A stretch of DNA of 64,000 nt from NCBI GenBank assembly GCA_037179385.1, contig CM074187.1, positions 43,744,879 to 43,808,878 of the forward strand, in the 5' to 3' direction. The notes under the pieces are model-generated. The model did not search any database, was not told the DNA's origin, and saw only the letters and a program-made list of their open reading frames with translations. Every line of letters starts with the position of its first letter. The first letter of the stretch is position 1. This document shows, piece by piece, positions 20,169 through 57,300 of the stretch. The position numbers were made by a program, and so were the translations under genes. Origin of the DNA: Holothuria scabra. Its lineage: Eukaryota > Echinodermata > Holothuroidea > Aspidochirotida > Holothuriidae.

Positions 20169-20172
20169 TTAA

Positions 20173-27567: not shown

Positions 27568-29055
27568 TAAACTAAGCCTAAGTAACTGTTCATTCCTTTC
27601 CTTGTTTTGTTTTGTATTGTTCTGTCCTTGTAGCAATAATGCGGAGGAATGGACCTGTAAGCTTAAACTGAGCCTTTAACTGAGTTGTCACGCAGAAGGC
27701 AAATATATCATAAGATGAATGGTGGGGTGAACTTTCTTCTCTTTCCGACGTCATCAACTTAACTTTTTTTTAACTTCTAAGAGGGTTCTAATGAGGGCTA
27801 TATTTCCCTCCCGAGGTAAGAGGTTGCTAAAGCAAAACCAAATTGAACTTGAACCATGCTGAAGAATAAATTTTAACTTCTGAACTTTTTATCGAATTGA
27901 CTGACACTATACAACATATTCATGTTGGTGTGTCGTGAAAGGAATATCCCGGTGTCAATTTCACAATGTCTCAAATAAATGAGAATATTTTTTTATCGCA
28001 CTCCCTTCAAACCTCACATCATAGTTTGTTTAGTAGTAACTCAAGATAATTCTGTTTGAGGATAGGTTATCTTCGTCAAAACAGACTCCTAGTTGCTCCA
28101 AGCTTGCAAAATGTTATGTAATACCGGCAGATTTCTTCTAAAATCATTTGTTGTTCTTTAATATTGGAGTAAGTAATTTGACCTCGAAACTTCACACCAG
28201 TTGAACATTGAATATTGTTCCTTTGAGGTTGACCTGAAATTTTGTGAGCACATAGGTTGCAGCTCTAAAAGTGTCTGCATATTTCATTTGCATGCATTGA
28301 CATTACATAAACATACAAAAGATGCTCAATTAATCTGTCGGCATGACATCACAAATTTCCTTCAATGCAATGTGTTACTCTTACAGAGAATAAAAGTACC
28401 TTGATTTTTTCGAAGCTTTTGAAAATTGTCACCGGAATATCCATTGAAATCCCATCTATCTCTTTATCTTACTAAATATAACCAGGGCCTGACAGTTTTC
28501 TGTACGTAGGCCAAATTGATTATTTTAGAGATTTATTTGGAGATTGTTGGGCCATGCGCTGTCCTGGCTGAAAAAGGAAAAGAAAAAAGTCGGAATGAAA
28601 ATAAAGAAAAGGAGAAAATGAAAATCTCTGTCACAGAAGGAAAATCATGTACCTTAATCATAGGAGCTCTAATTTTCTAATAACGTGACCCATAATTATT
28701 ATCATATATTTGACTTAATCGGAGCCTATTTTAAAAGAATTCCATATTCGTTTAGAGGATGGAGTTGTAAGCTTTGTCTGGAATGTATTTTCAAATAAAT
28801 GAGAGACGTATATAGGTATAGCGCATTAGGCACAACCTTACGATCGTTATTGCTGACAAGTAATTCAATATATTAACAAGCTATGTGCGTGGCGCCAAAC
28901 CCACACCCCCCCCCCCCCCCCACCTCCGGGAAAAATAAAAAAGGAAAACAAGAAAGGAAACAAAAAGAAAAAAATAAGGAAGATTTGGATGAAAAGAAAC
29001 CACAACATGCAACCAACCATTTCCCGGTTAAAATAACCGAGGAAGACTTTTAAAT
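27568..29055. other. Non-coding stretch with a 16-base C run
   Basis: Mostly unique AT-rich sequence. The C run is at 28906-28921, followed by A-rich sequence. Nothing coding is recognised. Confidence 0.5.
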
Positions 29056-32000
29056 TTGCAGTGGCGGGGACACTAACGTGAAAGTCCAGCCACTTTTTGT
29101 GACCAGAAACGTAAAAGTTAGGTCCTACCAAAAAGACTTTACATGTAGGTTATGAAGGTATCCTCTACCGATTACGATCCATTTTCTGTATCAATAATTA
29201 ACCATGTTTACTATGCATTCACAAAATTTTTTGCGCGCTCCGCGAGCTTGCAGTCTCTTTTTTCACTTGCATATCAAACATACTCACATTTTTCATCGGT
29301 CTCTATGATCATGTCGATTGTTGTGGTGCAGAGTAAAGCAGGTATGGTTATGAAGGAACACAACATTTAGGAATTTGAAGACGAGGAATCGTCCCCTACC
29401 ATGTTTTAATGGAATCTGTAGTGAATGACCAGCCTGACAGCCTGAAACTGGCAAGCACATTTTAAGAAAACTGAAAATGTCTCGGTGCGCACTCTGCATA
29501 CAACTTTTCAGGAAAATAAATGATTTCTAGTGCAAAATTTCGACACGCGCACATCACACATTCGTAAAGCAGTTCGACCATTTCGAATTTAAACCATTTT
29601 CAGAGAAGCAAAATCACATTGACGTTCAGCTAGATAAGAGACTTCAATCTGGAATTAGAGGTGCACCTCCATCCTCTGTCTGCACATAGTGTATGATGAG
29701 GTGTCATTCGAAAGGACATATTTTAATGGTTTGTGTCATTAATCTTAAAACCGTAGGCCTATGCAACGGTGTCCCAGTTGTAGCCTACCAGTGGGTACCA
29801 CCCCACCCCCCCCCCCTCGATCATTTTCCCGCAGTAAATTGAAGTGTACTTTTGAAAAATTCATGGATTTATTTTACCCTCTTTCATTTCAAATGGTTGC
29901 TTACTATTAGAACTGTTGCACAAATTCTTCGCAAACTATCATAATTTTCGTCGTGATTCTAATTAATTGTAGAGTACATCCGGAATTTAAATTCACATTG
30001 ACCGTAGTCCGTTGAAGTACGGTAATTACCCACGGTTTCAAGACCATGTTTTGAAAATTTAGAGTTTGCTAGGAACTCAAATTCTCTCCAATAAAAGCTC
30101 CATATTCGTCATTATTGGCCATTACTTGTTTTAAAAAAAGCAAAATTTCCACCCGCTTCGCGCGTCGCAAATTGCCGTTCCTAAGCAGAGGTGCTCGTTC
30201 ATACCTTCAGTTTGGCAAATTTTTCAGAGCTCCGGAAGTTACAAAATCGGAAATTTGCCATATGTGGCACCAAATCATCAAGTGACACCGGTAACTACAG
30301 GGCTATTTTCATAAATTTTATTTCATAAAATTGCAAATTTTCTCCGATAAGTTCTTGACTAAATAAATTTCGTCAGAGAGCCTCATTACGTATGCGTTGC
30401 ATAACATTGTGTAGCAACAACGATCTTTGGTCCTTGCTCAATCTCAGATTTGCCAATAGGAAATGCAAATTCTTCAGTAATCCCAAACTTTTCAAATTTT
30501 CTTACAGGAAACCCAGAATCCAAACTTTTTTGCAATACAAGCTCCATATTTTCAAATATTTGTAAAAGGGCAATAATTTCAGGGCGCTTTGCGCGCCACA
30601 AATTACCCCCGTAGAACAGTGGTGTTAACACTTAAAATTGTAAAATTTGGATACTTGCCCATCCCTCCCCCCTCCCAGCAAATATGTCTAGCTACTGTTG
30701 CGTCGCCGGCCTCCAAGTCTTCCTTCAATCGTCGATGAATGTGGGGGGGGGGGTTGCAGGTGCTTCTGGGTAGCCCTGGGCTAGGGGTAGTAGAGTTACG
30801 GTGGGGGTGTGGAGGTATCCTGGTAACCCCTTGCAGCTGCCAAAACTACAACTAAACTTGACACATTATGACTCAAATAAATCAAGAACAAGTATTATAA
30901 GGTACCACTTCTTTTATTCAAGCTGGCGTTCAAGAATCAAAATCTTCACCAGCTTCTTCTTCTTCTCGATACATGAAAAACGTACAAGTGATCTCACAAA
31001 ACCTCTTCTTGGTTGCAGAAAACCCAGTAAATCTAGTTCCATTCGCTCTGTTGCCTGAAATTACATCCCCAATTATATCCTTAGAGCTTCAGATAAACTC
31101 ATAACTATTTTGACTGCCATATATTAAAAACCTCCCCATCGCAGTAAGTGACTGGTTTTGGTTTCCAATTTAGCTTAAGTTCCAAAGCTGTAACTCCCCC
31201 TTTAAAAGTAACAAAACTGAGCATTGCTCTGCTATGCTGAGCTCACCAATTTGTCCCTAACAAACAGCTCCAAAATTAAATCTTACCAGAGTGAGACATG
31301 TTAGTTCCTGTCCCATATTCTCCTGGAGTACTAAAATGGAAATATGCTCACCAAAGAATTATCCTCTCTCAAATTCACCAGTCTCTCCCTCCTGAAAGTA
31401 GCCCAAATCGCCAGAAATTCTTGACAGTAATTACGCACTTAGTCTATTTACTTCTTCTCGCTGTGAAGCCTAAATCTTGAATGAACCCTCCTAAATTTCT
31501 AACTTCTCAACTTTACAACTTCTTTCCTCCACCATACTCTTAGACACAGAGAAACATGCTACTCATTCATTGGTTAGCATGATTTAAAACTTTTCTGATT
31601 GGCTGGGACCTACCCAGGCAGCACTCATTTTGTGAACTAGGTTACTGAACTCAACTTCAACTGCACCTGCAGAATATTATTAAACAGTTTCTTAGAAATT
31701 CTCCCCAATTAGAGCAAGCCCCATCTGCATCTGCACAATGTCATTAAACAGTTCCTCAGAACTTCTCCCCCAATTAGGGCAAGTTTTGCTTCCCATCCTG
31801 TCCCATCACCTTGGTTTACAAATACCCCCACTTCCTATCCTTTGATCTAAGTCAACAACAGAATTAATTTGGAAGTGATTCACCCTTTTTGTTATAAAAC
31901 TTTGGGAAACACAGGATCTCTACTTCCAGATTCTCACAACATTTAACAGTTGTTTTGGCTTACCCATCCTGTGAATCAGCCAACTTCTCATTTCACTGAG

Positions 32001-32118
32001 AGAGCAAAGACCTTTTAGAATTTTTGCAACACTACGCCGCTGTAGACACTTTACCAGGACAGGAGAAAAATTTTTGGCCAGATGTCCCCCCTCTCTGAAA
32101 ATCAAATCGTCGCCCCTG
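29056..32118. mobile_element. Family X element (GGGGCGTCGATTTG ends), copy interrupted by a solo LTR
   Basis: 29056-30080 is a diverged direct copy of 37425-38435 (shared words: acatgtaggttatgaagg, gaggtgtc.ttcgaaagga, tttccccgcagta). 30085-30690 matches 39470-39665 plus 42499-42875, and 32036-32118 matches 42880-42958, ending cgacgatttgattttc complement and CGCCCCTG. Put together, these define a non-autonomous element of about 1.8 kb. The left terminus is missing here. The 1.3-kb gap is explained by the LTR at 30696-32031. No transposase frame is present. Confidence 0.75.
30696..32031. mobile_element. Probable solo LTR (1336 bp, TG..CA)
   Basis: The insert begins TGTTGC and ends GCAACA, with ctac directly before (30692-30695) and after (32032-32035). 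The paralogous sequence at 42865-42885 runs through this point without the insert (ctagctacgaacatgttgat), so the borders are fixed by comparison. It has no gag or pol frame and no second LTR. TG..CA ends, a short inverted repeat and a 4-bp duplication are LTR hallmarks. Inside is a roughly 63-bp near-duplication (31665-31785). LTR family unknown. Confidence 0.7.
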
Positions 32119-33520
32119 TTCACCATGCAATTTGCAAACGCATTTTTAAAGAACTTGAGATTTTAGGTGAATGGTCTTCATGCATCATTTGTCATAGAAT
32201 TCAGTAAATGATCTTTTCACAACGTTCGACCTGCCTGTCACTCATTCGTCACGGTTCACAATTTATAACCATTATAAGGAACATAAAATGAAAGTTTTCA
32301 GGCCATGGCACGAATCCGAAAATAAGAGGAATCCCTCCTTGCTGTTCAGGGAAATGCGAGGTGTCGTTCGAGCTTATTTTTATCCGTTTTACCAAATACC
32401 TTTCCAAAATTTCCAACATTTTGTCGCCCAAAGAAAGTTTAATCTTTGTTTTAACTGTTTTATTTTAAAAATAAAAGACAAAATATTGTTGTATACTATT
32501 TTTTAATATCGTCTCATTTGCATTCAGATTGTTCAACGGCGAAATGCAAAATGGGTTTCACAACAGTTCTTATGCAAAATTTCTGCTATATTCCTTCACC
32601 GTATTGCATGATACCCATGCTTCCGTTGCACCCGTATCAGGGGTATCGGGACTGCCAGGGTAAGCATGCCGACACCGCTTTATCGATTTCCAATTTTCCC
32701 GAAGGTTCCTACTGTAGTAGTATGAGGAGTACTTTACGCTGTATGGATCAATTTCAAACATGTTCTGTCATAAACGGATCTCATTTGAAGCTAACTATCA
32801 AATTTTTGGTGTTTGTACTGTGGCATATTGAAACTTTGCGCAAAACAATCAATTGCTCATTTTATACCAAAATTTCTAAATTGTTGCAAATTAAGGTAAA
32901 ATAAATTAGCTATTCCTCGAAATAATAAGTTTAGCTGAAAACAAGTCATAATATGCCGATTTTTATTCACAATACCTGATTTCTGATGATTTCAAACTAT
33001 GTGACGTCACAAATGGGGGAATTTCCCCCTAATCATGCCCCAAACCATGCAGTTTACACCGAACATATAGATGTGTCTAATAATATGAACGTCACAAATC
33101 TATAGTTTAGCCAGACATTTAAAGTAACCTCGAATACCACAACAACAAAAACCATGAAAATACTCCATGCGCCCACACACTGATAACTCATTTGCGAGGT
33201 TTATAACCTCAGCTCAGTAATACAAATAACCTCCTTTCCGTTGCAAATAGGTTTTGTGGGGACTGAAAGTCTTTCCATCTAGATCCGGAATACAAATTGG
33301 GTTAAGGAAATGAAAAGCGAAATTTCAACGCGCTTCGCGCGCTTTCGTCGCCGTTGCACCCCATCTCTTGACCAGGTCTACCATATACTGCATAGAATAG
33401 CTGAAATGTATATAAGTTCCGAAATTATCTCCATTTTGCATCTAGACCAACAAAAATCAACAAATAAAAAGGGAGGAGGCGAATACTGATGTGCTCAATC
33501 CCTCCTCTCAATAACACAAC
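32119..33520. other. Non-coding stretch
   Basis: No gene is recognised. A gcgcttcgcgcgc word at 33330-33345 resembles those inside the family X and hAT-like elements nearby, so part may be decayed transposon. Confidence 0.4.
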
Positions 33521-33524
33521 TTAA

Positions 33525-33794
33525 AGGGTTTGTCCTCTCAACCCAAACTACAATTTTTGTAGTAGTCCATACAAATTCTCTGTTGGTTCAGCTCTTTGAT
33601 TGGCAGCTTGTTCAAACAATGCAGAGTACCAAAGCATATGTTACACAACATGAACTGTACTGAGAGTGTTTTGATTATACACATTGAGCTTTTCTAAACT
33701 CACCCTTAGCAGCAATAAACTGAGATTGTGTCTGGATGAGGATGAATTTAAGACAATTGTGGGAGGGGCTTAAGCAAGGAGGCAAGGAAAATTG
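33525..33794. mobile_element. TTAA-targeting MITE, family T1, copy 4, truncated
   Basis: It follows TTAA at 33521-33524 with end AGGGTTTGTCCTCTCAACCC. The body matches copy 1 (ctgagattgtgtctggatga, gggaggggcttaagcaagg). It stops at aaaattggtaact, losing the last 25-35 bp including the right inverted repeat, and joins the L2-like pseudogene at about 33795. Confidence 0.85.
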
Positions 33795-34450
33795 GTAACT
33801 TGAAGACCGATCGAGTTTCTAATTATTCCCAAAAAATGCTTTCCAATATTTCTGTTAAGTCTATTTTAGTTGGTAGCATCGACAAACAGATAAATGCTGA
33901 AACCGAAGTCCGTAATCTCGGTGTATGGTTTGATAAGAATGTTTAGTTTGATACTCATGTTAGTAAAATTTGTAGTAAGGCATTTGTCCACCTGTTCAAA
34001 ATTAGACAAGTCATGAGGATGCTGTCTGAGGCCCGGATGCCTGCAAGAGTTTGCTCCATGCTTTTGTATCCTACCATTTCGACTATTGTAACTCTTTATT
34101 GTTTGGGGTTCCTGACAATCTTATAACCAAATTACAAAGTTTTCAACATGACAAGACTTGTCACTCTCACTCCGAAGTTCTATCACATTTCACCAATTTT
34201 GCATGATCTCCATTGCCGGGCTACCGACTTTTTACAGAATTCACTTTAAGGTGATTCTGTTGGTTTTTAAAGCCCTTAACGGTTTAGCCCCGGTTATTTG
34301 TCCAGTCTAGTGTTAAAGATGGCTGACTCCGCTATTCACTTAATTGTTTTTCGATTTAATACCTCTTTTGGTGAATCGTCGTTCTTTCACTGTGGCTGGT
34401 CCTCGCCTTTGGAATTCTCTCCCAGCTGATCTTACATTATGTCCCTCCAT
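33795..34450 (+). pseudogene. L2-like retrotransposon, decayed reverse transcriptase C-terminal region
   Basis: In shifting frames it reads VRNLGVWFDKNV, FDTHVSKICSKAFVHLFKIR, HAFVSYHFDYCNSLLFG and, near the end, LWNSLPADLTLCPSI. These are the late blocks of L2-type reverse transcriptase, the same as the 3' part of the intact copy at 956-3778. Several frameshifts and stops make it inactive. The sequence is interrupted after ctccat at 34450 by the foldback element, and its last residues and 3' tail are at 44821-45020. Confidence 0.85.
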
Positions 34451-34488
34451 TATGAAAACGTTAAGGTGCCGTCAAATTACAAACTTAG

Positions 34489-35300
34489 ATCCTATATTAT
34501 CTTAACATTTTGCAACAAAATGATGAAATGTTCACTTATTATCGTAACATTTTGCAGTTAAGTGATGAATTACAAACTTACCATATTTCAACAATTCAAC
34601 ATTTTGCAGAAAATTGATGAATTACCTACTTATCACAAGTAATCAATTCAACATTTTGCAAAAAATGATGAATCACAGACTTAACGGATTTCGACAATCC
34701 GACATTTTGCAGATAAGTGTTTAATTGCACATTTATCGGATCTCAACAATTAACCAATTTGCAGAAAAATCACGAATTCCACACTTACCAGATGTTAGCA
34801 AATCAACATTTTGCAGAAAACTGATGAATTACTCAGTTATTGGATCTAAGCAATTCAACATTTTGCAGAAAAATATTAAATTACACATATTAAAGATCTC
34901 ACCAATTCTACATTTTGCAGAAAATTGATGAATTACACAGTTAATGGATCTTAACAATTCTAAATTTTGCAGAAAATTGATGAATTATAGACCTAACGGA
35001 TTTCGACAATTCACCATTATGCAGATAAATGTTTAATTACACATTTATCGGATCTCAACAATTAACCAATTTTCAGAAAAATCACGAATCCCACACGTAC
35101 CAGATGTTAGCAAATCAACATTTTGCAGAATACTGATGAATTACTCAGTTATTGAATCTAAGCAATTCAACATTTTGCAGAAAAATATTAAATTACACAT
35201 TTAAAATATCTCACCAATTCTACATTTTGCAGAAAGTTGATGAATTATCGGATCTTAACAATTTAACAATTCGCAGAAAAATGACTAATTACGAACCTGC
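34489..35300 (+). repeat. 52-bp satellite, about 15 copies, left arm
   Basis: Each unit carries acattttgcagaaaattgat followed by gaattac and ends ...tcaacaattc. Unit starts are at about 34541, 34592, 34692, 34743, 34795, 34847, 34899, 34951, 35003, 35055, 35107, 35159 and 35211. A higher-order period of six units (312 bp) is visible: the block at 34692-34950 matches 35003-35262 better than neighbouring units match each other. The frames across it are repeat translations. Confidence 0.92.
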
Positions 35301-36027
35301 TTAAGATTCTATTTCCACATTTTAAAGAGGTAGAATAAAGTGTGCTGTCATTGAAACTTATCAATTACACGTTTTCATACCAAAACATTTTTGTGTATCT
35401 GTGTGTTAGGGGCAATCCGACCTCTTGAGGCGGGGGGGGGGGGGCGTAAAACTTGCAAAGAGCCCATTTGGGGTTGTGGCAATCCCCTCTTGTAATGCTA
35501 CTGGTTTGATATGTGTAAAAGGTGTAGTAGCATATCAGACTCTACAATTAAATCACTTTCTTTAAATTCTCTGCTATCTTCTCAAAAGGACCCCTATAAT
35601 TACTTGTTTTCGTTGTTATTGGGACGTTAATGTCAGCAAGGTCTAAACAGACTAAAAATTCAACACAACAGCTACAAATCTAAAGTTTGTTATAGTTTTC
35701 ACTTAAAGGCTGTACTAATCCTGGCTTGGTTTAAGACAAAAACAACAACTGGCATTTAATTATCCTTTTTGAAGCAGGATTCCTGAACCTACTTGTACCC
35801 CATTAATTCTTTAAGGCCGAACCATCGAGCAAAATTTCGTTTACAAAGTGCAGTCAACGATTATCACCTCATTTAATTCGGACTAGTTTAAAGGAATAAC
35901 TAAAAGATAACAACCTTTAAACACGTAAAGCGTACAGGTATGAAGCTGTTTCCGACAGAAGGGTGGAGAGGGAAGCTGAAAGGTATTCTTCGGACAACAT
36001 TTATTGCCACGGGTCTAAAGAAAGAGG

Positions 36028-36772
36028 GGCGTCGATTTGATCCTCAAAGGTGGGGGAGGGGGGAATCTGGCCTACATTTTTCTCCTTCCCTGGTAAGGTA
36101 TCAACATGTTCGTAGCTAGACATTTTTACGAAAAGGGGGATGGGCAAACATCCAAATTTTACGATTTTTTAAGTGTGAACACCACTGTACTAGGGACGTA
36201 CTTTATGACGCGCGAAGCGCGCTGAAATTTTTATTCTTTTTCCAATATATAAAAATATGGAGCTTGCGTTGCAGAAAAGTTCGTCGGAGAGCCTCATTCC
36301 GTAGGCTTTGGATAACATTATGTAGCAACAACGATCTTTGGTCGCCCCTCAATCTCAGATTTGCCAACAGGAAATACAAATTCTTCAGTAATCCCCCAAA
36401 TTAATTTTTCATGTCAAGGGCTTATATTGGGGAAAATTTATGAAAAGCACTGTAGTTACCTTTGTTAGTTGATGATCTGGTGTCACATATAGCAAATTTC
36501 CGGTTTCTTAACTTCAAGAGCTCGGAAAATTTGACCAAACTGAAGGTATGAGTGAGCCATTCTGCTTAGGAATTGCGATTTGCGGCATGCGAAGTGCCTG
36601 GAAAATTTTGCCTTTTTGAAACAAATAATAACGAATAAGAAGTTTTTATTGGAGAGATTTTGGAGTTTCGTAATTTCATGAGTTGTCAAACCACACAGTA
36701 GACTGGTTTCACAAATAGCAAGTTTCCGAATTCTTCATTTTTCAGAGCCACCTGCCTCCTGTAGCTACGCCA
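36028..36772 (-). mobile_element. Family X fragment inside the left foldback arm
   Basis: It starts AGGGGCGTCGATTTGATCC and is the inverted match of 42958 back to 42499 and then 39665 back to about 39361. It ends near gtagctacgccactg at 36760-36775. The junction at 36024 lacks 12 bp present in the right arm (between two cccct words), a microhomology deletion. Being present in both arms at the same place shows that X inserted before the arms were duplicated or homogenised. Confidence 0.75.
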
Positions 36773-36775
36773 CTG

Positions 36776-37365
36776 GGTGTCTAAGAGAGAGGGGGGGGGG
36801 GGGCAAATGCAAAATGGTTGTAAATGTTTCAATATTTTCTGTTACTGGGAAACTCCAAGCAGGCAGCACGACTATCTAAGAGGAGCGCCACCATTAGTTG
36901 GCGCGGAGGGTACAAGAAAATTTTTGACTTCACAAACCCTTCAGATGGTCGGAAACGGCACCTCTCGAGTGAGAATAATATGAAAAATAGTGCAAATATG
37001 AAATGACTACATACATCTAAATAGAGATGTCACATTTTGAAACTAGCACTTACAATTTTTACTTAGAGTAAAAGTGATTATTCACTGTAAAATCCGGGAC
37101 GTCATATGACATTATTTACTGTAAAATTTATATTTTTAAATTATTGTTAAAATCCCTTAGTCGAAATGTTGTGGCGGAAGTATGCTTTCGCACTATTTAA
37201 GATTGAATACCCCTTAATATTTCCTTTTTGAAAAAATGTAAAAATAAATTATTGTTATTTCCCTATAAATATTACCTAATAATATATTTCACTACATTAC
37301 ATTTGGGGACAATCAAATATTATTAATTTTTTCAAAAAAGAAAGGGGATACTCCCTCTCGCTACC
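36776..37365. other. Central AT-rich core of the foldback element
   Basis: A G run at about 36790 and a copy of the Y unit (gagcgccaccattagttggcgc, 36880-36960) are followed by AT-rich sequence with aaattattgtta words. No transposase is encoded. Confidence 0.5.
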
Positions 37366-38486
37366 ATGGGCGTCGATTTGTGGGGAACAGGGGGACATGT
37401 CCCCCCACTTTTTTGAGTGGAGGGGACACTAACGTTAAAGTCCCCCTCCCCCCGCTTCTTTTGTAACCTGAAACTTAAAAGTTAGATACAACCCAAAAAT
37501 ATATACATGTAGGTTATGAAAGGTGTGCTCTGCCGATTACGATCGATTCTCTGTATCAATAATTCCACATGTTTACTTTACAAATCCCCAAAATTTTCGG
37601 GCGCTTGCAGTCTCATTGATGTTCCTTTTTCACTTGCATATCAAACATACATTATTCATCGATCTCAATGGTTATGTCGATTGATTGTGTGCATAGGGCA
37701 GCAGATGTGGTTATGAAGGAGCACGACATTTAGGAATTTGAAGAAGAGGAATCGTCCACTTCTATGTTTTAATGAAATCTGTAACCTTTAGTGAATAACC
37801 AGCCTGGCAGGCTGAAATTGGCAAACACATTTTAGGGAAACTGAAAATGCCTCGGTGCACAGTCTGCATGCAACTTTTTCAAAAAATAAATGATTTCTAA
37901 TGCAAATTAATTTCGACACGCGCACATCACACATTCGTATAACGATTCGACCATTTCGTATTTAGATCATTATCAGAGAAGAAAAATCACACTGATGTTT
38001 GCTATATTAGAGAAGTCAATCTGGAATTAGAGGTACACCTCCATCCTCTGTCTGTAGATAGTGTATGATGAGGTGTCGTTCGAAAGGACATATTTTAATT
38101 TTTTTTGTATCAGCAATCTTACACCGGTAGGCCTATGCAACGGTGTCTCAGTAGCACCAGTGGGTACCACCCCCTCCCCCATCGATCTGTGATTTTCCCG
38201 CAGTAGACTGAAGTGTGCTTTTCATCAGTTCATGGATTTATCTAACCTTCTTTTAAAAATTTTTCTTTACTATTAAACTTTTGCAAAAATCCTTCGCAAA
38301 TTATCACAATTTTCGTTGTGATTCTATTCACTTATAGTACACCCGGTAAATTCACATCGACTGTATGGTCCGTTGAAGTAATTACACACAATCAAGATCA
38401 TGTTTTTAAGACTTTGGAGTTTCCTAGTAACTCAAAATATTGAAATATTTAGCACCATTTTGCATTTGGACCCCTTCTCTCAGGCA

Positions 38487-39368
38487 CCCAGTGGCTTAGC
38501 CAGCGGCGGCGCCAGAATGTCAAATTGAGGGGGGGGGGGCTGTGGGCAAAGGAAAATGCCGGGGAGCAAAGATTTTCGCGCCCAGGGCGAAACCGAGCGC
38601 AAAGCGCGAGGTCTTGCGGGTGGGGTCCAGGGGCCCGCCTTAGGACCCCTGGTAGGGTCCAGTGGCAAAGTCCCGGTGGGGCCCAGGGGGCAAAGCCCCC
38701 GGAAGCTCTGGGGTTGTACCATATTTCTGGGTGAAAAATTATGTCCCACGAGAGGTATATTATTTGATTTTTCGGTTGATCTAACTCCAAGGTTAACAAC
38801 TTTTTTTTTCTTTGAGAGTATCATTATATTTGCGCGGTGCCACCGAGTACCACTATAGTAGTCAGTGGCTAAACCAGACTTTTTAATTTGGGTGGGGTGC
38901 TGTGGATGGGCAAAGAGTTGAAATAGTGTTAAGCTGTAATGACACCATCTAAGCAGAACGCAATCATCAGTTGGCGTGCAGCCTACATAAATAATTTATG
39001 GATGTATGAGGGAGAATAAGAAACAATAGAAAAATAAAAGAAGCACGCTATGTACCAAACCGCGAACTGCCAAGACAAGGCAACTGTATATCATAAGTGA
39101 TATGCGTACCACATGTAGATTGGAAACACCTTACCCTAACCCGGAAGGATGATGTAGGCCTACTTCAAGAGCATGTAATTAGAAAAATTTTCGTCAGTAT
39201 CAATTGCACGTTCACCCAGGAGCCAGTGCACTCCCACCCCCAACACACACACTCATAGGCCACATGCACTTCCATTCCATCAGTTTTACTTGGGGGAGCA
39301 ACTGGGGGCAAGGAAAGAATTTGATGGGGAAATGCCCCCTCACCCCCCCCCCCCGTAGCGCCGCCAAT
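38487..39368. mobile_element. GC-rich hAT-like fragments inserted in X
   Basis: Two left-type ends, CAGTGGCTTAGCCAG (38487) and CAGTGGCTAAACCAG (38861), point the same way, and a right-type end lies near 39360 (gtagcgccgccaatg). The first fragment is GC-rich with cccaggggcaaagcccc-like words and a G run (38528-38537), related to the MITE at 22686. The overlapping open frames of about 100-116 codons on both strands reflect GC content. Confidence 0.6.
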
Positions 39369-40252
39369 GGGCGTAGCTACAGGGGGGAAGGCGGCTCTGA
39401 AAAATGAAGAATTCGGAAATTTGCCATTTGTGAAACCAGTCTACTGTGTGGATTGACAACTCATGAAATTACGAAACTCCCAATTATCCCCAATAAAAGC
39501 TCCTTATTCGTTATTATTTGTTTCAAAAAGGCAAAATTTCCCAGGCGCTTCGCGTGCCGCAAATTGCAATTCCCAAGCAGAAGGGCTCACTCATACCTTC
39601 AGTTTGGTAAACTTTTCCGAGCTCTTGAAGTGACAAAATCGGAAATTTGCTATATGTGACACCATGCAGATCAGTGGCGTAGCTACGGAGGGGGCTGGGG
39701 GCTCTATCCCCCCCACTGAATCGTCTATCTCCCCCCCCCCCCAGCAGCCCCCACTGGCGACCTGGGGAAAAAATATATTCACGCTGGCCGATGATAATAT
39801 TCAATCCGAGCTACCTGGCTACTATGACATAGGTACACTTGCGATAGATCCACTCTGAATGTCGGAATAAATTCAGGCAGACTGTGACAACTCGTCGGGT
39901 TTCTGGATGGATAATTTCCTAGCAGATTTGGAGTGGCTGAAATTGGCTACGGTACCTTGGTGTGGATTAAAGTGTGCTCCTAGCATCTAGCCTGTTTCTA
40001 TCTCCTGTAGGGATTTTTTTCAATTCCTGGGGATGCACAAATTTGTTCCAAAATCATACCTAGTGCGGTGGGTAGGATATTTGAGTCAAATTAGGTTGGA
40101 AGGAATTTGCACTTTGCACGGCCATTGCTGCCACTCATAGGCCAGTGCAACAACCAAACCCAAGTTGGGTCAATGCAGTCTCAAGGGTCGCAACCTTACC
40201 ACTATTACCTCATAGGACATCACTTAGTCCTTGGGAGGAGTGGACAAACCCA

Positions 40253-40990
40253 GTGGCGCACGAGACGGGGGCAAGGGGAAGACTACCCCAAATTTCCGCA
40301 AAATCTAAATTCGGGCAGGAATTTGGGAAAACTTCGGGCAGCAATTTGGAAAAAAATCGGACAGCGCTTTAATTTTGGAAAAAAGGGATGCTTTTTCAGA
40401 AAATTCCTAAATGTGTCCGAAATCTTAGATTGCCCGAAAAAAGGAAAGAAACGTCATATAGTCGCTTTCATATAGTCGTTTTCATGGAAACCCAAGTCGA
40501 GATTCCAAAAAATCGCTACACCTTCGGGCAGTGCAAAAAGCTTTTATTAGTGACTTTTACTTCACTTATAATCACAACACAATGCCCGAAATTGTCGAAT
40601 ACCCAAATTCTTTCAAGCAAATTCCCGAAAATGGAAAAGTACCATAAGTAAGGGTAACATAGTTACGAAAACTCAAACATATCAAAAAATCATGGCGCAT
40701 TTGGGAAGCCTGTGGCTTAAAGGAAACAATCGTTCTTGAGCATGTTTTTAAATGTTGTGCAACACAATACGGTACTCGAAATGGCCGATTATTTTAATAG
40801 CTTCAAATCTTTACCGCAAAACAAAAAAAGCTATTTTTAAAGTGACATTTTCATGGAAATTAACAAAGATCTGCGACACATTTGGGTAGAGTGTGAAAGA
40901 AAGTTTTCACCATCCCCACTTCATACTGTAGTCTTGCAAAAATTGCCCGAAAGGGTCAAATATATGGGCACAGGTTAAAAAAGATGCTGA
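40253..40990. repeat. Repeat C, copy 1
   Basis: It starts cagtggcgcacgagacgggg and includes aaatttccgcaaaatctaaa and attgcccgaaa words. It is the inverted, diverged match of 45025-45709. It lies inside the hAT-like insert. Not coding. Confidence 0.7.
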
Positions 40991-41399
40991 GACGTTTTCA
41001 AATGCCAAATTAATTCAACGCACGGACAGAAGGGTGTTTAGGTGCAGTGCCCAAAAGTTTGCCATCTATCCTGCTCTAGAGTCGAATAGGGGCAATGGTT
41101 ATGAAAATCGGGTAATTTGTTTTTCGATACTTTAATGACGCAGTGTGATAATGTCTTCCCATACGTCTGCTTGAAAATTCTTTAAACACACCTTGTAATG
41201 TTACATTTTTCAAAAGTAAAATCATATAAAGTCGGAATTTCTTGCAGTCACACAATTTTATCAATATATATTAAATTAGCCAAGAGACGTAATAGAGTAA
41301 AATTCATTAGTATGTTTTCAATTCAATTTTATGGTTTCCCCAGAAAATATGCGGGACCATTTCATCGATTGGTAGTGATACATTTTATCTGGTAATTTT

Positions 41400-42440
41400 C
41401 TGATTAAATAGCGAATGCTTAGATCTCCCCCTATAAGCCTGGGAAATGTCATTTTCGACTGTCTCAGGGGTACGATTTTTCAAAATTTTCTGTTCGCTCC
41501 GCGCCAACTAATGGTGGCGCTCCGGGTAGATAGTCTTCCCAGCAGAATTTTAGTTTCAAGTGGACATTATTTTCAAACGTAACCTCGAAGTAGCGACTGC
41601 TTAGACCCAATATAAGTATAGGAAATGCCATTTTTGACTGTCTGAGGGGTCAGATTTTTCAAAATTTCCTGTACGTTTCGCCCCAACTTATGGTGGTGCT
41701 CCACTTAGACCGCTTCATTACAGAATTTAAGTTCCAAGTGAACATTTTGTGCAAAAGAAAACTTACAATAACAACTGCTTAGACCCCCTATAAGCCTTGG
41801 AAATGCCATTTTCAACTGTCTGAGGGGACGGATATTTCAAAATTTTCTGTACGCTTCGCGCAAACCAATGGTGGCGCTCCGCTTAGTCTTTCCGGCTGAA
41901 TTTTAGTTTGGAGTGAACGTTTATCTGCAATTGAAACTTATAATAGCGACTGCTTGGATCCCCTCTATAAGCCTTGGAAACGTCATTTTCGACTGTCTGA
42001 GAGGTATGAATTTTCAAATTTTCTGGACGCTCCGCGAAAAACCAGTGGTGGCGCTCAGTTTTGACTGTCTTACGGGCAGAATTACACTTTTCGGGCAAAA
42101 ATCTCCTGTCCCCATACTGAAATGCTCCCCTACGCCTATGGAAATACCTTACTCATGCGTGCACTGGAACAGCTGCTTGCAATATACAGCAGGATTTTGG
42201 ATTTGCGATCCTAGGATACATAGTCCAGTGGAGTAATGAACTGAGCTAATCAGTATCTCAAAAGTGTGTTTGAAACTGAGAAAAATCACAAATTTTTCTC
42301 ACCAGAATTAAAGACATTTAAACCTGGCAAATGCTATTCCCAGCCATCTGGGAGGTGTTAAAATCTAAAATTTTCTTTGTACGCTCCGCGCCAACTGATG
42401 GCGGCGCTACGCTTAGATAGTAAACTCCAGACTTCCCCCT
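41400..42440. repeat. Y satellite, 178-bp units
   Basis: Units at about 41410, 41590, 41767 and 41944, plus a fifth detached unit at 42310-42430. Each contains gactgtctgaggggt, ttttcaaaattttctgtacg and aatggtggcgctccgcttag in that order. Inverted single units occur at 36880-36960, 46305-46395 and 46505-46620. Confidence 0.88.
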
Positions 42441-43124
42441 ACAAAAGTATCCCGCCTCCCCATAGCCTCCCCACGAAAAAAACCTAGCTACGCTACTGCA
42501 CCAGATCATCAACTGACAAACGGTAACTACAGTGCTTTTCATAAGTTTCATAAATGTTCTTTCATTAAAATTCCAATTTTCCCCAATTCAAGCCCTTGAC
42601 ATGAAAAATTAATTTGGGGGATTACTGAAGAATTTGCATTTCCTATTGGCAAATCTGGGATTGAGCGGCGACCAAAGATCGTTGTTGCTACAACATGGTA
42701 TCCAAAGCCTACGAAGTGAGGCTCTCCGACGAACTTTTCTGCAACGCAAGCTTTTATTTTCATATATTGGAAAAAGGGCAAAAACGTCCTAGTACAGTGG
42801 TGTTCACACTTAAAAAATCGTAAAATATGGATGCTTGCCCATCCTCCTTCCCGCAAAAATGTCTAGCTACGAACATGTTGATACCTTACCAGGAAAGGAG
42901 AAAAATGTAGGCCAGATGTCCCCCCCCCCCCCCACCTTGGAAATCAAATTGACGCCCCTGCTCTCTACCCCTCTTTCTTTAGACCGGTGGCAATAACGGT
43001 TGTCCGAAGAAAATCTTTCAGCTTCCCTCTCCACCCTTCAGTCGAAAACAGCTTCATACCTGTACGCTTTACGTGTTTAAAGGTTGTTATCTTTTAGTTC
43101 TTCCTTGAAACTAGTCCGAATTGA

Positions 43125-43378
43125 AGGTAAAGAGCAGTCCCTCCAAACTTATTTTGAAGAAAAAGCTAAATAGCACAATTTTCGTCTTATTTCTCTTCAA
43201 AGCATCTTTCATTACATTTTATGATTTAACTATTGCATATTCAAGGTAAACCAAGCAGTTATTTCCAGTAAATTTCACATTTGAAGAGAAAAAACATTGT
43301 CACGTGACCATCAACAGCCAATCATGAAACTGGACAGTCTCCTACACTACTTCATTTTGGGATGACTGCTCCTGCCCT
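43125..43378. mobile_element. TTAA-targeting MITE, family T3, in the right foldback arm
   Basis: A 254-bp insert between TTGA (43121-43124, mutated TTAA) and TTAA (43379-43382). The inverted ends have the form AGG(G)..AGAGCAGTCCCTCC and complement. The left arm keeps the empty site at 35871-35880 (catttaattcgg), so the borders are confirmed and the insertion happened after the arms formed. Confidence 0.85.
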
Positions 43379-43964
43379 TTAAATGAGATGATAAATCGTT
43401 GACTGCACTTTGTAAACGAAATTTTGCTCGATGGTTCGGCCTTAAAGAATTAATGGGGTACAAGTAGGTTCAGGAATCCTGCTTCAAAAAGGATAATTAA
43501 ATGCCAGTTGTTGTTTTTGTCTTAAACCAAGCCCGGATTAGTACAGCCTTTAAGTGAAAACTATAACAAACTTTAGATTTGTAGCTGTTGTGTTGAATTT
43601 TTAGTCTGTTTAGACCTTGCTGACATTAACGTCCCAATAACAACGAAAACAAGTAATTATAGGGGTCCTTTTGAGAAGATAGCAGAGAATTTAAAGAAAG
43701 TGATTTAATTGTAGAGTCTGATATGCTACTACACCTTTTACACATATCAAACCAGTAGCATTACAAGAGGGGATTGCCATAACCCCAAATGGGCTCTTTG
43801 CAAGTTTTACGCCCCCCCCCCCGTCTCAAGAGGTCGGATTGCCCCAAACACACAGATACACAAAAATGTTTTGGTATGAAAACGTGTAATTGATAAGTTT
43901 CAATGACAGCACACTTTATACTACCTCTTTAAAATGTGGAAATAGAATCTTAAGCAGGTTCGTA

Positions 43965-44760
43965 ATTAGTCATTTTTCTGCGTTTTTCTGCGAATTGTTA
44001 AATTGTTAAGATCCGATAATTCATCAACTTTCTGCAAAATGTAGAATTGGTGAGATATTTTAAGTGTGTAATTTAATAGTTTTCTGCAAAATGTTGAATT
44101 GCTTAGATTCAATAACTGAGTAATTCATCAGTATTCTGCAAAATGTTGATTTGCTAACATCTGGTACGTGTGGAATTCGTGATTTTTCTGCAAATTGGTT
44201 AATTGTTGAGATCCGATAAATGTGTAATTAAACATTTATCTGCATAATGGTGAATTGTCGAAATCCGTAAAGTCTGTAATTCATCAATTTTCTGCAAAAT
44301 TTAGAATTGTTAAGATCCATTAACTGTGTAATTCATCAATTTTCTGCAAAATGTAGAATTGGTGAGATCTTTAATATGTGTAATTTAATATTTTTCTGCA
44401 AAATGTTGAATTGCTTAGATCCAATAACTGAGTAATTCATCAGTTTTCTGCAAAATGTTGATTTGCTAACATCTGGTAAGTGTGGAATTCGTGATTTTTC
44501 TGCAAATTGGTTAATTGTCGAGATCCGATAAATGTGCAATTAAACACTTATCTGCAAAATGGCGAATTGTCGAAATCCGTTAAGTCTGTGATTCATCATT
44601 TTTCTGCAAAATGTTGAATTGATTACTTGTGATAAGTAGTTAATTCATCAATTTTCTGCAAAATGTTGAAATGTTGAAAAATGGTAAGCTTGTAGTTCAT
44701 CATTTATATCCAAATTGTTAAGATAATAAGTGAACATTTCATCATTTTGTTGCAAAATAC
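43965..44760 (-). repeat. 52-bp satellite, right arm (inverted copy)
   Basis: The complement of the array at 34489-35300, with the same order of unit variants. An extra cgtttttctg duplication at 43980-43992 is specific to this arm. Confidence 0.92.
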
Positions 44761-44820
44761 TAAGATAATATAGGGACTATGTTTGCAATTTGACGGCACC
44801 TTAACGTTTCCATACTCCAT

Positions 44821-45020
44821 CGACATTTTCAAAGGTAAACTTAGGACTCACCTTTTTGAGCAAGCTTTTAATGTGTAGTTCTCTTTTACTTTTGTGTTTT
44901 ATTTTTTTTTTTTCTGTTTCTTTGGTTTGTTTTATTTTTTATTGTATAGCGCAACAGATTAAATTTTTATAGTTGTGGCGCTTTATAAATTATAATAAAT
45001 AATAATAATAATAATTAATA
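44821..45020 (+). pseudogene. L2-like retrotransposon, last codons, 3' UTR and tail
   Basis: It starts in frame with IDIFKGKLRTHLFEQAFNV then TAG, the natural end of an L2 polymerase. A 3' UTR with gtggcgctttataaat and the tail ataataataataataat (about 45000-45018) follow. This is the other half of the copy at 33795-34450. Confidence 0.9.
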
Positions 45021-51300: not shown

Positions 51301-54300
51301 AATTCCTTTTAAAACTTGAAAAAATGCAGCTATGTTTTGTTTGTAAAGAAATAATACTGAATACATTTGCTCAAATTTCTAACACAGATGAAATTTTATC
51401 ATAAAACGGCTTCTCTGCAAATCATTACTCAAAGCTTAGGCCTAATTTCGAGCTGTGTATTGTGCAACTTTTGTACTGTTACGCTCCCGTACAATGTCAC
51501 AGAATTTATGGCCCTGGCAAAATTTTTGCCGATGTTGAATTGATTCGGTCTCCTGTAGCATTGGGATCAATTCTAGTAGACAAATAACCAATGAACATAT
51601 TAATTTTGTTTGGCCTTAACTGAATTATAATGTTCTAGAGGGTTATCAACTAGCACTGACACTTGCAAGAGATAAAAACCCCAATAACACTGAATATGTA
51701 CTGTGGATGCCCCGATGCTATATGGACACCGGTGAAAATGGTGTCCGTGATCATTCACTGATGATAAAAATTTCCATTTGGCTCAATTCCTCCCCACATT
51801 TAGTTTTACCTCTTGGTTACTACACAGCTCCTATGAAACTAGTAGTTGACTTGATCAGATCAGACTTAGTCCATTAAAAATGAAATATGCCTTCCCGATG
51901 CTACACAATTCTCCCGATGCTAGATTGCGGACACTGCAGCATCTTTGCTGAAATTACAAAATTGTGTGTTGCAGCTATTCAACAAATCATGTTTCATTGG
52001 AATCTTCTTGCTAGCTACTTCCTAGGACGTGCCCATTTCTCTCAGTATCAGTTCTTTTCTTGCAAAGAGACATGTGTGATGTTATCAAAACTCCCGATGC
52101 TACAATGGACACCACAATAAAAGTTAATGATATTTTCCTGTGAAAATTTTGAATGCAGTATTATTTGGGCAGAAATGCCTGTGAAGTTAATTCTTGACCA
52201 CTGTCATAATATTTTGAACACAGATTAGCAAGAATAGAACACCATGTGTGTTCAAGGTAGACTGTACAAGCTGATACTAGTACTGTGGACACCACATGCA
52301 GCATCGGGATAAAAATTTTCATTCTTCCATAATTTTGAAAAATACATTGTTCCTGTTTTGTTTACTGTTTCCAGGGCATGGGTACTGTAGGTTGATACTG
52401 TACTAATGGATAAGATAGTAATTTCTGGTGTTCCATTCCCTAATTGCTGAACAATCCCCACATTAAAAACATCAATATTTAATGTCACAAAATGTGCCCC
52501 CAAAAAAGGGTTAAAAACCTTAAACAATGGCTCATAAAAGAAAAAATCGTAGGAAATATAAACTTTATTTAACTTGCAGATGATAGTTCCACCAAAGAGC
52601 TACTCAAAAAAAAAAACTTTTGAAAAAAAACTGCTGACATATATAAAATTATTTTTTAATTGTGCCATTAAGGATACTGCCAATAAAAATCATTGTGTTC
52701 GTTGTAAGCAAACATTTGCACCAGGTATATTGTAGAATGCGTTAATAGCAAGGAAACATGTCTGTTTGTCATGTAGCTACAGTACTGTATGTAGCTATGA
52801 AAACTAATGCAGTAATGTTTTGTAGTCTTCTGGTACTCCATGGATCTGAAAATTACAAGTTTAAGCCACAATTAGTTTTGTTTTCACAACTTTTGTGACA
52901 ATATTGCTGCACCATACTGTACAGGTAACTGTTACTGTACCAGTCACCATGTCAAACGTGATCGGTCACTGTGAATAGGATGCCTTCCTGTCTTACATAT
53001 TAAAAATGTATGTACCTGGAGAAACGTTTAAACAATCATTCAACTGCAATTAAAACAATAGGCCTAACTACTGTAACATTTTTTCTTACTTAAAACTTAC
53101 AGTAGATCAAGCAATGTCTCCTTACAGTTAGTACAATCTGTGAAAATGCTCACTGCAGAAAAAAGATAACAGTTCTGGAACAAAAGGTTTATTTTCTCTG
53201 TCAAATTAAAATTTTTTGTAAAGATTACTTCAAACTTAAATTTCTGTCACCTCACATTTTTCACAGGGTAACATTTTTGATTCCTTGCCGTAGGCAGGCA
53301 AGGAATCTATGCGATGGTGATGTCGTGTGTATATGTGTGTGTGTGTGCGTATGTGATGCTTTGGGTGGTAAACACGATATCTCAAGAAGGGTAACTCCGA
53401 GGGATCTCATACTATCCCTATTGTTTCTGGTGGACGTCAAAGGTCATTTGGGGTCACGAGAGGACAAAAGGTCAAAACTTCATAGACACGATATCTCAAG
53501 AACGGTACATGTGACTATGCTCATATTTGGTGTGTGGGTTGGTCATATTGAGTAGATGAACCCTATCGATTTTCTTGGAGGTCAAAGGTCATTTGGGGTC
53601 ACGAGAGGTCAATGGGTAAATTCCTTAGAAATTGCTTGTAAACATGGTATCTCAAGAAGAGTAAGTGTGACTAACCTCATATTTGGTGTGTGCATTGGCC
53701 ATATTGAGTAGATGATCCCTATTGTTTTTGGTGGTGATCAAAGGTCATTTGGGGTCACGAGAGGTCGAAAAGTCAAAACTTCGTAAACACGATATCTTAA
53801 GAACAGTACATGTGACTGTGCTCATATTTTGTGTGGATGTTGGTCATATTGAGTAGATGATCCCTATTGTTTTTGGTGGACGTCAAAGGTCATTTGGGGT
53901 TACGAGAGGTCAAAAGGTCAAAACTTTGTAAACACGATATCTCGAGAATGATACGTGTGACTATACTCATATTTGGTGTGTGGGTTGGTCGTATTGAGTA
54001 GATGATCCCTATTGATTTGGTGGACGTCAAAGGTAATTTGGGGTCACAAGAGGTCAAAAGGTCAAAACTTCGGAAACATGATATCTCGAGAACGGTACAT
54101 GTGACTATGCTCATATTTGGTGTGTGGGTTGGTCATATTGAGTAGATGATTCCTGTCGATTTTCGTGGAGGTCAAAGGTCATTTGGGGTCACGAGAAATC
54201 AATAGGTAAATTCCTTAGAAACTGCTTGTAAACACGGTATCTCAAGTAGAGTAAGTGTGACTAATCTCATATACGGTGTGTGCATTGGCCATATTGAGTA

Positions 54301-57300
54301 GATGATCCCTATTGTTTTTGGTGGAGGTCAAAGGTCATTTGGGGTCACAATAGGTCAAAAGGTCAAAACTTCGTAAACACGATATCTCAGGAATGGTACA
54401 TGTGACTGTGGTCATATTTGGCAAGTGTGTTGGCCATATTGAGTAGATAATCCCTATTGTTTTTGGTGGAGGTCAAAGGTCATTTGGGGTCATGAGAGGT
54501 CAAAAGGTCAAGACTGTAAACACGATATCTCAAGAATGGTACATGTGACTGTGCTTATATTTAGTGTGTGGTTTGGTCATATTGAGTAGATGATCCCTAT
54601 TGATTTTCTGAAAGGTCAAAGTTCATTTGGAGTCAGCATGTTCAAAGCCTGACAAGCTTTCCTGCACAGTCTCCCAAGAAAGGTCACTTGTAGGGTCCTG
54701 TAACTTGTCCTGTAGATGTCACATAGTGAATACATGGTCCCAGAAGTTTTTGGTGGAGGTCAAATGTCATTTGGGTTCACAACGAGCAAGGGGGATCTCA
54801 ATGTAGGAAGATTGGATGCCTTGCATGTGTACTTTGTGGGCACATTATGGGAGCCCTGTTAATTGAAAAACATTGCAAAGCAATGTCAATGTGGAAAAAG
54901 GCCTTACATTTCAGCGGCAAGGAATCACTAAGCCTTTTGGCTCTCTGGTTATCTTTGTCTATTGCGACACCTTTTAAACGTCAGTCAGAGTTCTACTGTA
55001 CAGTATTCTCTATGACTTAAAAAGTTCAGTTTAAGATATCATTTAAATTTCAAACCCTCAGACTTTTCTACTTGACTTTTATTTACCCAGTGTCACATCA
55101 ATTGTGCTTTCCTTATCAAGGGCTAAATGTATGTCTTTGTATGTATGGTGCCATCTTGGGAACATTGTTTTCAAAACCATTGTTGTTGTAAGTTGAAGTA
55201 GCACGAACATAAAGTTGCTAGGGATTTCAAATGTTGTTTTGAGTTGCCTCTTATAAAATATCGGTCAGTTGTCCAGTTATTTCCACAAGGTAATAAAACT
55301 TGAGTTGGAAAAACAATGGAACAAGTCCATTGTTTTTGCTGCAATACAATGGACAAGAGCTACATTGAACTATGGAGATTCCTTGTACAGTACCAAGCTT
55401 GCTGTTGGTGAGCACTTACTTCCTGTCGGGTTAAGTACTTGTTATTCAAAGGTGAAATTGGGTCTGTTAGTCATTTTCTGGTGCATAAACTTTTACAAAC
55501 TTCGTTTTTAATATGCACCAATGCATGAACTAGTTGAAGCCAGTACATTTATAAATCTTCAGACTTGAGGTCAAACCATAACAGTCCAATCACTTTACAG
55601 TATCCCCTAAAACATAAAAGGAAGATTCCTAGAAGGTCATTGTTTAAATTTTAAAAAGATTGGGTGAAAAAAATCATTCTTGAGAAATAAGCAAATTTCT
55701 CTCTGTGAGCAACTTCTTTCTTAGAAAGTAGGGTAGTGTATCCTCACTATCCTGTATCATTTGAATTAACTTTAAAAAAAGGTGACTTCTTGGTTTTCAT
55801 AAACAAAACCTACTGCATGCATTGATGTTGGTGTTCCCTTTTATTTTTTGGTGGAGGTCAAAGGTCACCAGCGTTCAAACACTGAAAACCTTGTTATCTC
55901 ATTATGTCAAGGTACAGTAGACAACTTGGATGTATTCATATTTTGTTAATTTTTGTATACATGTGGATACATTACTGTGTAGTGAGAGGATGGTCCCTAT
56001 TGTGTTAGGTAAGGGTAAAAGGTTATCTTGGGTCCCCAGGGAACAAACATTGAAAACCTTGTTACAGTAACTGATTATCTTAAGAGAGGAGAAACTTGGA
56101 TAGATTTTATACTGTGTACAGTATGTGGATAGTCAGTTTTGAAGTATGGAGCTTGAGAAGCTGAGAGTAGTGGCTCCTTCAGGTAGATTCCTTACTGTAC
56201 TTCTGTAGAACTCTTCATGATCAATCATGCAGAAGGCAACAAACCACATGTTCAAAAATTTGTGTTATCAGGTATAGTGTGTACTATTTTCTATAGTCTG
56301 TAAACATGACCCAGCCTTGCAGGCATCTAATGGCACTACTTTCAGTACTGTAGCTGTATATAACATACCAATAGTTATTAAAACCATTGATGTGTGAATC
56401 AAGTTAGAAGGGTCATGCTTGACTGATTCAGTGAAACAGATTTTAGACACTTTTAACGTTCACATATTTATCTGTAGTTCGTAATACTGTACTGTACATT
56501 GATAAGGCTTTGGGCCAATGCAGAGTTCAGTTAAAGCATAGTGGCTGGCTGTGAATGTGAATATTGTTTCCTATAAATGTGCATAGGGTTTCCAATTGAT
56601 CTTTATGGTGACTGTGATCTTGTCAAGATCTGATTTTTGACTACTAATTATTTTTATACAGTGAATGTTTCACTTACAATATTGTGTTAATGTATAGTTA
56701 TTGTTTCGGAACTTTCGGATATTGCCTGGGTTCTTATCCTTAAAATGCACAGTAATAGTAACACACTGATAATTACAAGCAGTACTGTATTCTGGTACTG
56801 CAATAAAGTTGAATAAACCAATAACAGTGTAATTGTTGAATGATAATTTGTAGTGACTTGAACACAACATCTTTACATGAAATAGTCCTTTGAACCTTTT
56901 TTTCTGCCCTGGTTCTAACACTGGTTCTTGAGATGAAGACAATCAACCAAGTGACCAGCAAATTTATATACTTGCTGGTATTTTACTAACTAACAACCAG
57001 ATAAAAAGGTGAATTTTGAAATGTAGTTTCAAATATGATTCAAGACTACAGGTTCAAATGCAGTCCAGATATGCACATATAAGGTCAAAATCCTTCCCTT
57101 TAAGGCTTGATCTCACATACCCTGTGACACTCGGTGTTACCTCGTGTTTACAATAAGGCAAAACTGCAGGTTAACCCTGTGTTTTCCAGTGTGTTCTCAA
57201 GTACCCTGTGTTTCTTGATTGAATAGTGCTACTAGTAACGAGGTCAAATATTTCACATACCGATTGCTGTAAAATGTAAGGAAATACCTGTCATCAGTGC

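Follow-up and report, generated by a model that had tools for sequence, protein, structure and literature searches.

A satellite-armed foldback element of Holothuria scabra as a likely non-autonomous member of the IS3EU/GingerRoot transposons

A stretch of 64,000 nucleotides from Holothuria scabra (GenBank assembly GCA_037179385.1, contig CM074187.1, positions 43,744,879 to 43,808,878 of the forward strand; hereafter the window) contains a 10.4-kb foldback element at 34451..44814, whose inverted arms carry 52-bp tandem arrays and which is flanked on both sides by CTCCAT. In this study, we provide evidence that this element belongs, with good confidence, to the IS3EU/GingerRoot DNA transposons as a non-autonomous foldback member, which would be moved in trans by a transposase of the rva_4 type. 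The case is built on the ends and target-site duplications (TSDs) of its genomic copies, and on rva_4-bearing elements of the same genome, which resemble it in their ends, equal it in duplication length and have array units alignable with its own.

The definition of the element is near certain. TATGAAAACGTTAAGGTGCCGTCA opens the left end at 34451 and ..TGACGGCACCTTAACGTTTCCATA closes the right end at 44814, and both the borders and the flanking CTCCAT given in the first-pass annotation proved exact. That annotation had also proposed that deleting the element plus one CTCCAT restores an interrupted retrotransposon frame, and this was borne out: the flanks joined with one CTCCAT read ..RSFTVAGPRLWNSLPADLTLCPS followed directly by IDIFKGKLRTHLFEQAFNV and the stop codon, a continuous frame whose alignment to the C-terminal end of another open reading frame (ORF) of the window, 947-3778, crosses the junction gap-free. 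The interrupted frame is presumably L2, and the intact ORF 947-3778 is open over 943 aa with matches to the RVT_1 and Exo_endo_phos (endonuclease) domains.

The genome (1.19 Gb, 31 contigs) was searched with the first 200 bp of the element, and the best 40 of 1025 candidates were scored; these showed 98-100% identity along all 200 bases, the weaker array matches coming next, and 20 of them were fetched, so that the fetched copies represent the best matches to the left end and no random draw. All 20 open with TATGGAAACGTTAAGG (TATGG) at the identical base in differing insertion sites, several flanks resembling each other because they are located in similar satellite arrays. The 24-bp end occurs exactly 312 times genome-wide (161 + 151) and its reversed control not once, thus the element ends are no chance match, and exact 35-bp ends were found 73 times as left-type and 60 times as right-type (controls 0). 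Pairing facing neighbour ends less than 20 kb apart gave 49 elements (42 left-right, 5 left-left and 2 right-right), and 29 of the 42 left-right pairs measured 9.4-10.5 kb (median 10268, range 7253-19770). Because exact ends alone were counted, the numbers of ends and pairs are lower bounds.

Both ends were read in 15 of 21 copies (the window copy and the 20 fetched ones), L009, L012, L013, L019, L021 and L025 being omitted from the duplication count with their right ends unread. The 6-bp duplication claimed from the window copy is exact in 13 of these 15, and no other length fits when lengths of 4-9 are compared. All 15 right ends read finish in CCATA, under a search expression that demanded ..CATA, and the 28-bp termini are equal at both ends, the window copy and L020 each deviating at a single base. 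Among the 73 listed left-type ends, only that of the window copy reads TATGA, the others TATGG. It had been feared that other copies might show different borders, or that CTCCAT might belong to the L2 consensus; the borders are alike among copies and each copy has its own duplication, therefore CTCCAT is no feature of L2.

The foldback copies (~10.3 kb) go back to a recent amplification of a single master whose two ends can be told apart. In the first 200 bp, the left ends of 13 copies share 99.1% identity and the right ends 98.4%, whereas a left end compared with a right end gives 90.7%, a difference of ~9% inside every copy. This points to one master with two distinguishable ends, and the high identity between copies implies recent moves. 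The main blocks of the copies are ~93-99% identical to the window element, the most rearranged copy, L013, having blocks of 90-96%. A passenger inside the right arm, which we take to be hAT-like, is preceded by CACCATGCAGAT and followed by CACCAGAT. Its interpretation as a private late insertion of the window copy was rejected, since it is present, in full or in part, in 18 of the 20 fetched copies and therefore belonged to the amplified master; it is missing from L018 (7253 bp) and from the related window stretch 30240-30290, and the fetched stretch of L025 ends short of its position. Seven of the 20 (L014, L015, L016, L018, L019, L020 and L023) have the spacer and innermost arms in inverted orientation, a larger inversion is present in L012, and the left-left and right-right elements have both arms of a single type, which together point to exchange between arms.

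According to the available text of two papers, IS3EU elements have TA..TA termini with TSDs usually of 6 bp (PMC10045372), or TAYGG..CCRTA ends with 6-bp TSDs (PMC12730594). The TATGG..CCATA ends and 6-bp duplications of the foldback fit this signature, and its arms of 1.4 kb at 97% identity exceed the 30 bp expected of IS3EU terminal inverted repeats (TIRs). As to the DDD/E (aspartate-aspartate-aspartate/glutamate) transposase expected of an autonomous member, neither the window copy nor the first 9.1 kb of each of the 20 copies was found to contain a transposase frame. Frames of at least 150 aa were listed over the same 9.1 kb of the 20 copies, and ten long ones were scanned against Pfam, none of them being transposase-like: frames of L012 and L025 matched reverse transcriptase, five had no match, one frame of L025 gave a weak match to an endonuclease domain, and another gave weak coiled-coil models. 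The foldback is thus likely a non-autonomous IS3EU/GingerRoot element. The suggestion that it forms a distinct family holds insofar as it is distinct, but it can be classified, and since IS3EU/GingerRoot can be proposed as its superfamily, it would add a new type of element to a superfamily already known.

Our starting guess was that rva_4 (PF24764) is the IS3EU transposase, and at least 91 matches to this domain were found in the genome (best E 1.3e-65; best 150 of 329 candidates scored) and none in 14 control genomes. The matches form several score groups, and ends were read for two families. In the first, hereafter the partners or TAYGGAAGCGTATAAG family, facing ends TAYGGAAGCGTATAAGTGCC enclose an rva_4 match in 13 cases; 11 of these were checked for duplications (C3 and C9 were left out), 9 with an exact 6-bp duplication, and their lengths range over 12.5-21.2 kb, with a median of 14.9 kb. 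C10, the copy read from end to end, measures 14884 bp, with arms of ~830 bp at 88% identity and 94-bp arrays of 5.8 and 12.9 copies, and its sole frame of at least 150 aa is rva_4. Two further loci, L052 and L053, read in part, are 97.8% alike over 4.3 kb and start with TAYGGAAGCGTATAAGTGCCACAACATC, an end found 28 + 21 times genome-wide (control 0); a frame of 430 codons is open across each of them and likewise in the C10 copy. The second family is represented by a 3406-bp element (L077:3259-6664; C1:32391758-32395163) with ends TACGGAAGCGT / TACGGAAGCGTATTG, CATTAC on each side, 41-bp arrays in both arms and an rva_4 frame of 212 aa, so array-bearing arms recur in both rva_4 families read. 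The match at C1:32393022 had looked nearest to an autonomous foldback member and was rejected, since this 3.4-kb rva_4 element stands apart from the foldbacks and ends differently. A stretch of 1001 bp (L074, C12:30266348-30267348) has partner ends on both sides and is perhaps a miniature member.

Holothuria leucospilota (61%) and Lytechinus pictus (51%) supply the nearest named homologues of the rva_4 protein, and two metagenomic homologues score higher. The residues that do not vary in 24 aligned sequences include D142, D201 and E242 (400-aa query numbering), a plausible aspartate-aspartate-glutamate (DDE) triad. The AlphaFold model of homologue P0002 (predicted local distance difference test, pLDDT, 86) is helical towards the N-terminus and has a core of mixed sheets and helices, and its best Foldseek matches were MuA, TnsB, IstA and retroviral integrases, with probability near 1 for most. 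In the literature search on rva_4/PF24764, the string denotes unrelated things among the matches listed.

The relatedness of the array units was assessed in five comparisons of 500 shuffles each. The 52-bp unit of the foldback aligns to the right-arm 94-bp unit with a score of 24 (shuffled mean 13.5), which was reached by 1 of 500 shuffles, and to the left-arm 94-bp unit with a score of 21, reached by 2 of 500. Another array of the clan, satellite II, was rejected as kin of the 52-bp unit, since 356 of 500 shuffles scored at least as well, and its likeness to the 94-bp unit is weak (30 of 500).

We propose that an integrase-like DDE transposase of the rva_4 type, supplied by relatives, would bind related array units together with the terminal motif, pair both ends, cut them and link them to the target at positions staggered by 6 bp. 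By analogy with Galileo, the arrays probably serve as a series of transposase-binding sites, and the affinity of the transposase for arrays may also attract further insertions to the arms of relatives; passenger DNA lying between the arms would travel along, and recombination between the inverted arms would flip the spacer and swap arm types. The suggestion of the first-pass annotation that other copies supply the transposase stands insofar as outside supply is likely, but the source would be larger families with related, non-identical ends, and none of the 91 listed rva_4 matches lies in the 49 paired foldbacks, a list that omits foldbacks with altered ends.

Several observations weigh against this interpretation. 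A transposase-coding element with exactly the ends of the foldback was not found, and mobilisation in trans is therefore what we infer. Under the Repbase rule, as given in the available text, non-autonomous members share TSD length with at most one mismatch in positions 1-11 (PMC4455052), and the foldback ends TATGGAAACGTTAAGGTGCC differ from the partner ends by 2 mismatches in the first 11 bases when compared with the TACGG majority and by 1 when compared with the lone TATGG end (C16). Past the first 20-odd bases, the foldback and C10 share only short array stretches and mid-element matches. Exact duplications are missing from partners C13 and C10 and from two of the 15 foldback copies (L018, AGAAGC/AGGAGC, 5/6; L024, none), and the possible miniature L074, outside the partner count, has GTAGCA/GTAGTA (5/6). 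The 430-codon frame has no ATG until codon 118, so that a working gene is only predicted; as homologues such as P0002 have a Met start close to the beginning of the frame, an upstream exon or an alternative start is likely. The Foldseek top matches have low template-modelling (TM) scores (0.16-0.35 by query length), and the transposase profile gave no match to solved structures by sequence with E up to 1. The proposed equation of rva_4 with IS3EU is drawn from ends, duplication length and integrase-like fold.

Whether the TAYGGAAGCGTATAAG family itself moves the foldback is about an even call, and the idea that the foldback is IS3EU-like but moved by another rva_4 family with closer ends comes not far behind, at slightly less than even chances. 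Several rva_4 score groups exist against two families with ends read, and the foldback has CGTTAAGG where the TAYGGAAGCGTATAAG family has CGTATAAG; however, the variant ends TACGGAARCGTTAAGRTGCC (14 sites) and TAYGGAAACGTTAAGRTGCCY (2 sites) were not found within 25 kb of any of the 91 listed rva_4 matches, and the foldback array unit is alignable with that of the TAYGGAAGCGTATAAG family. Type A ends (..GTGCCATCA) were also rejected, as the one paired case read, L046, has no clear duplication and no frame of at least 100 aa. L046 together with L049 and L050 (C4:43248253-43257415) shows the related ..GTGCCATCA family nested symmetrically in a larger TACGGAAGCGTAGAAGGGCC-ended foldback with a different 52-bp satellite.

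Explanations outside IS3EU/GingerRoot appear much weaker. Long arms are typical of Polintons, and a non-autonomous Polinton/Maverick, with 6-bp duplications made by the Polinton integrase, would explain the long inverted repeats, but Polinton ends are AG..-like against the TATGG..CCATA of the foldback. Polinton TSDs are indeed of 6 bp in the available text of PMC10045372, yet in C10, the partner with similar ends read whole, rva_4 is the only frame of at least 150 aa (spliced genes were not searched for), and we regard this origin as improbable. A foldback of the Mutator or P type (the FB, Tetris or Galileo kind) with an unusual duplication length is just as hard to credit: the array-bearing arms and variable middle recall these elements, and the majority of foldbacks have been assigned to Mutator, but the exact 6-bp duplication in 13 of 15 copies contrasts with the 8-10 bp of Tetris (PMC4079207, available text), and the ends resemble those of rva_4-bearing elements of the same genome. 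A local rearrangement or an error of assembly has next to no likelihood as the origin of the palindrome, for although long array-bearing inverted repeats are difficult to assemble, the 49 paired copies on many contigs, mostly of similar size and with private 6-bp duplications, refute it.

Foldback arms of tandem units are familiar from FB (Drosophila) and TU (sea urchin), with duplications of other lengths; Galileo leaves a duplication of 7 bp, and Polinton/Maverick elements have long inverted repeats as in the foldback, with different ends and gene content. No paper on TU elements was found in the literature search. Judged from the portions available of the sources cited below, IS3EU/GingerRoot shares with the present system TAYGG..CCRTA ends, 6-bp duplications and an integrase-like DDE transposase (here in the partners), and the foldback form, array-bearing kilobase arms and 10-kb non-coding members are unmentioned there (PMC10045372, PMC12730594). 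Galileo of Drosophila is alike in its long arms and internal tandem repeats with extra transposase-binding sites, but belongs to the P superfamily, with a THAP transposase and other ends (PMC3688188). Tetris of Drosophila virilis is likewise a non-coding foldback with tandem-repeat arms and a variable middle, whose autonomous partner was sought elsewhere; it differs in its 8-10 bp duplications and suggested Mutator affiliation, and no autonomous copy was found, whereas a candidate partner is present here (PMC4079207). Polinton/Maverick shares the 6-bp duplication (PMC10045372), and Dada has duplications of 6-7 bp but no TIRs and targets specific small RNA genes, in contrast to the long TIRs of the foldback (PMC3706591). 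Foldbacks are mostly placed in Mutator, Galileo (P) being an exception, and the search for an autonomous partner came up empty for some of them, including Tetris (PMC4079207). No IS3EU foldback is described in the literature searched (Repbase and most subscription journals lay outside the search), where an IS481EU paper and an oyster satellitome study each combined two or more of the terms IS3EU, foldback and GingerRoot; a table of the oyster study includes two satellites with IS3EU similarity, and the available part of a beetle paper reports one satellite, half of which is IS3EU-similar.

The insertion sites of the foldback were examined by comparing 21 left flanks of 300 bp with 20 hand-chosen 300-bp genomic stretches. 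Arrays from the arms of this clan (52-bp, satellite II and 94-bp; E up to 1e-6) were matched by 10 of 21 flanks and 0 of 20 controls (Fisher p 0.0005), and a periodicity measure (52/105-bp, at least 0.45) picked out 7 of 21 flanks and 0 of 20 controls. The 6 bp bordering the element on its left read NTTWTC or its complement in 6 of the 10 array insertions and in 0 of 11 others, against 2.2-2.3% of array positions that fit this motif; in three of the six (L014, L026 and L028) it is a confirmed duplication, whereas the right end of L013 and L025 is unread and L024 has no duplication. The motif was picked after inspection and then counted in a small sample, and insertions in non-coding arrays may simply be tolerated, therefore targeting is put forward as a hypothesis. 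We consider it possible, if rather doubtful, that the arrays are both docking sites and landing pads of one IS3EU transposase, whose affinity for its own satellite units would steer insertions into relatives' arrays in a fixed phase. Apart from these flanks, a TACGG-type end TACGGAAGCTTAAAAGTGCCAC follows TTTTC inside the right arm of copy L009 (L029, base 160 of the reverse complement), and another, TACGGTGGTTCTGAG, follows TTTTC in an array-like stretch near copy L021 (L034).

One genome thus holds a foldback family and rva_4 elements with similar ends, equal duplication length and alignable array units, so that two questions become testable in one system: the role of foldback-arm arrays, and the means by which a 10-kb element without coding capacity keeps moving. 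Should the landing preference hold, it would offer a concrete route for the transposon spread of satellite DNA, and satellite-armed foldbacks would be a self-made safe target as well as a source of dispersed satellite DNA.

Table 1. Coordinates of the foldback element, its parts and the interrupted retrotransposon frame in the window
Feature	Position	Strand	Remarks
Whole foldback element	34451..44814	.	10364 bp; exact-end pairs genome-wide cluster at similar size
Left CTCCAT	34445..34450	.	Copy of 6-bp target-site duplication
Right CTCCAT	44815..44820	.	Copy of 6-bp target-site duplication
Left terminal core TATGAAAACGTTAAGGTGCCGTCAAATT	34451..34478	+	TATGG.. in all 20 fetched copies
Right terminal core	44787..44814	-	Inverted version of the 28 bp, with TATGG
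Left outer arm	34451..35876	+	~1.43 kb; 96.7% identical to right outer arm across 1438 alignment columns
Right outer arm	43379..44814	-	
Left-arm 52-bp tandem array	34495..35292	+	~13.5 units plus degenerate edges
Right-arm 52-bp tandem array	43983..44719	-	~13.5 units
Left arm, inner part	35872..36482	+	Pairs with 42499-43125 at 82%, 80 gap positions
Right arm, inner part	42499..43125	-	Partner of 35872-36482
Left arm, innermost	36478..36805	+	Pairs with 39333-39664 at 89%
Right arm, innermost	39333..39664	-	Partner of 36478-36805
Spacer (loop)	36859..38413	.	
Passenger with CAGTGGCGTAGC..GCTACGCTACTG ends, inside right arm	39672..42498	.	
Presumed L2-like retrotransposon frame, C-terminal end, left of insertion	34374..34450	+	
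Same presumed L2-like frame resumed, right of insertion	44821..44878	+	Stop TAG at 44876-44878

Inside the element, the arms extend inward as degenerate sequence to ~36858 / 38414. The window also holds, 2.3 kb upstream, a diverged (~80%) sequence related to the spacer and inner right arm of the element (29055-30695 and 32041-32121), in which no match to the array-bearing outer arms or to the passenger was found. Tandem repeats of 145 bp in which AGGTCA-like words are abundant (GGTCAAAGGTCA) occupy 3863-4140, directly after the retrotransposon frame 947-3778, and 53414-54635. A dispersed repeat of 280-330 bp is present four times in the window in both orientations (6090-6404, 19866-20173, 33518-33797 and 57682-58014), its copies being 76-83% alike.

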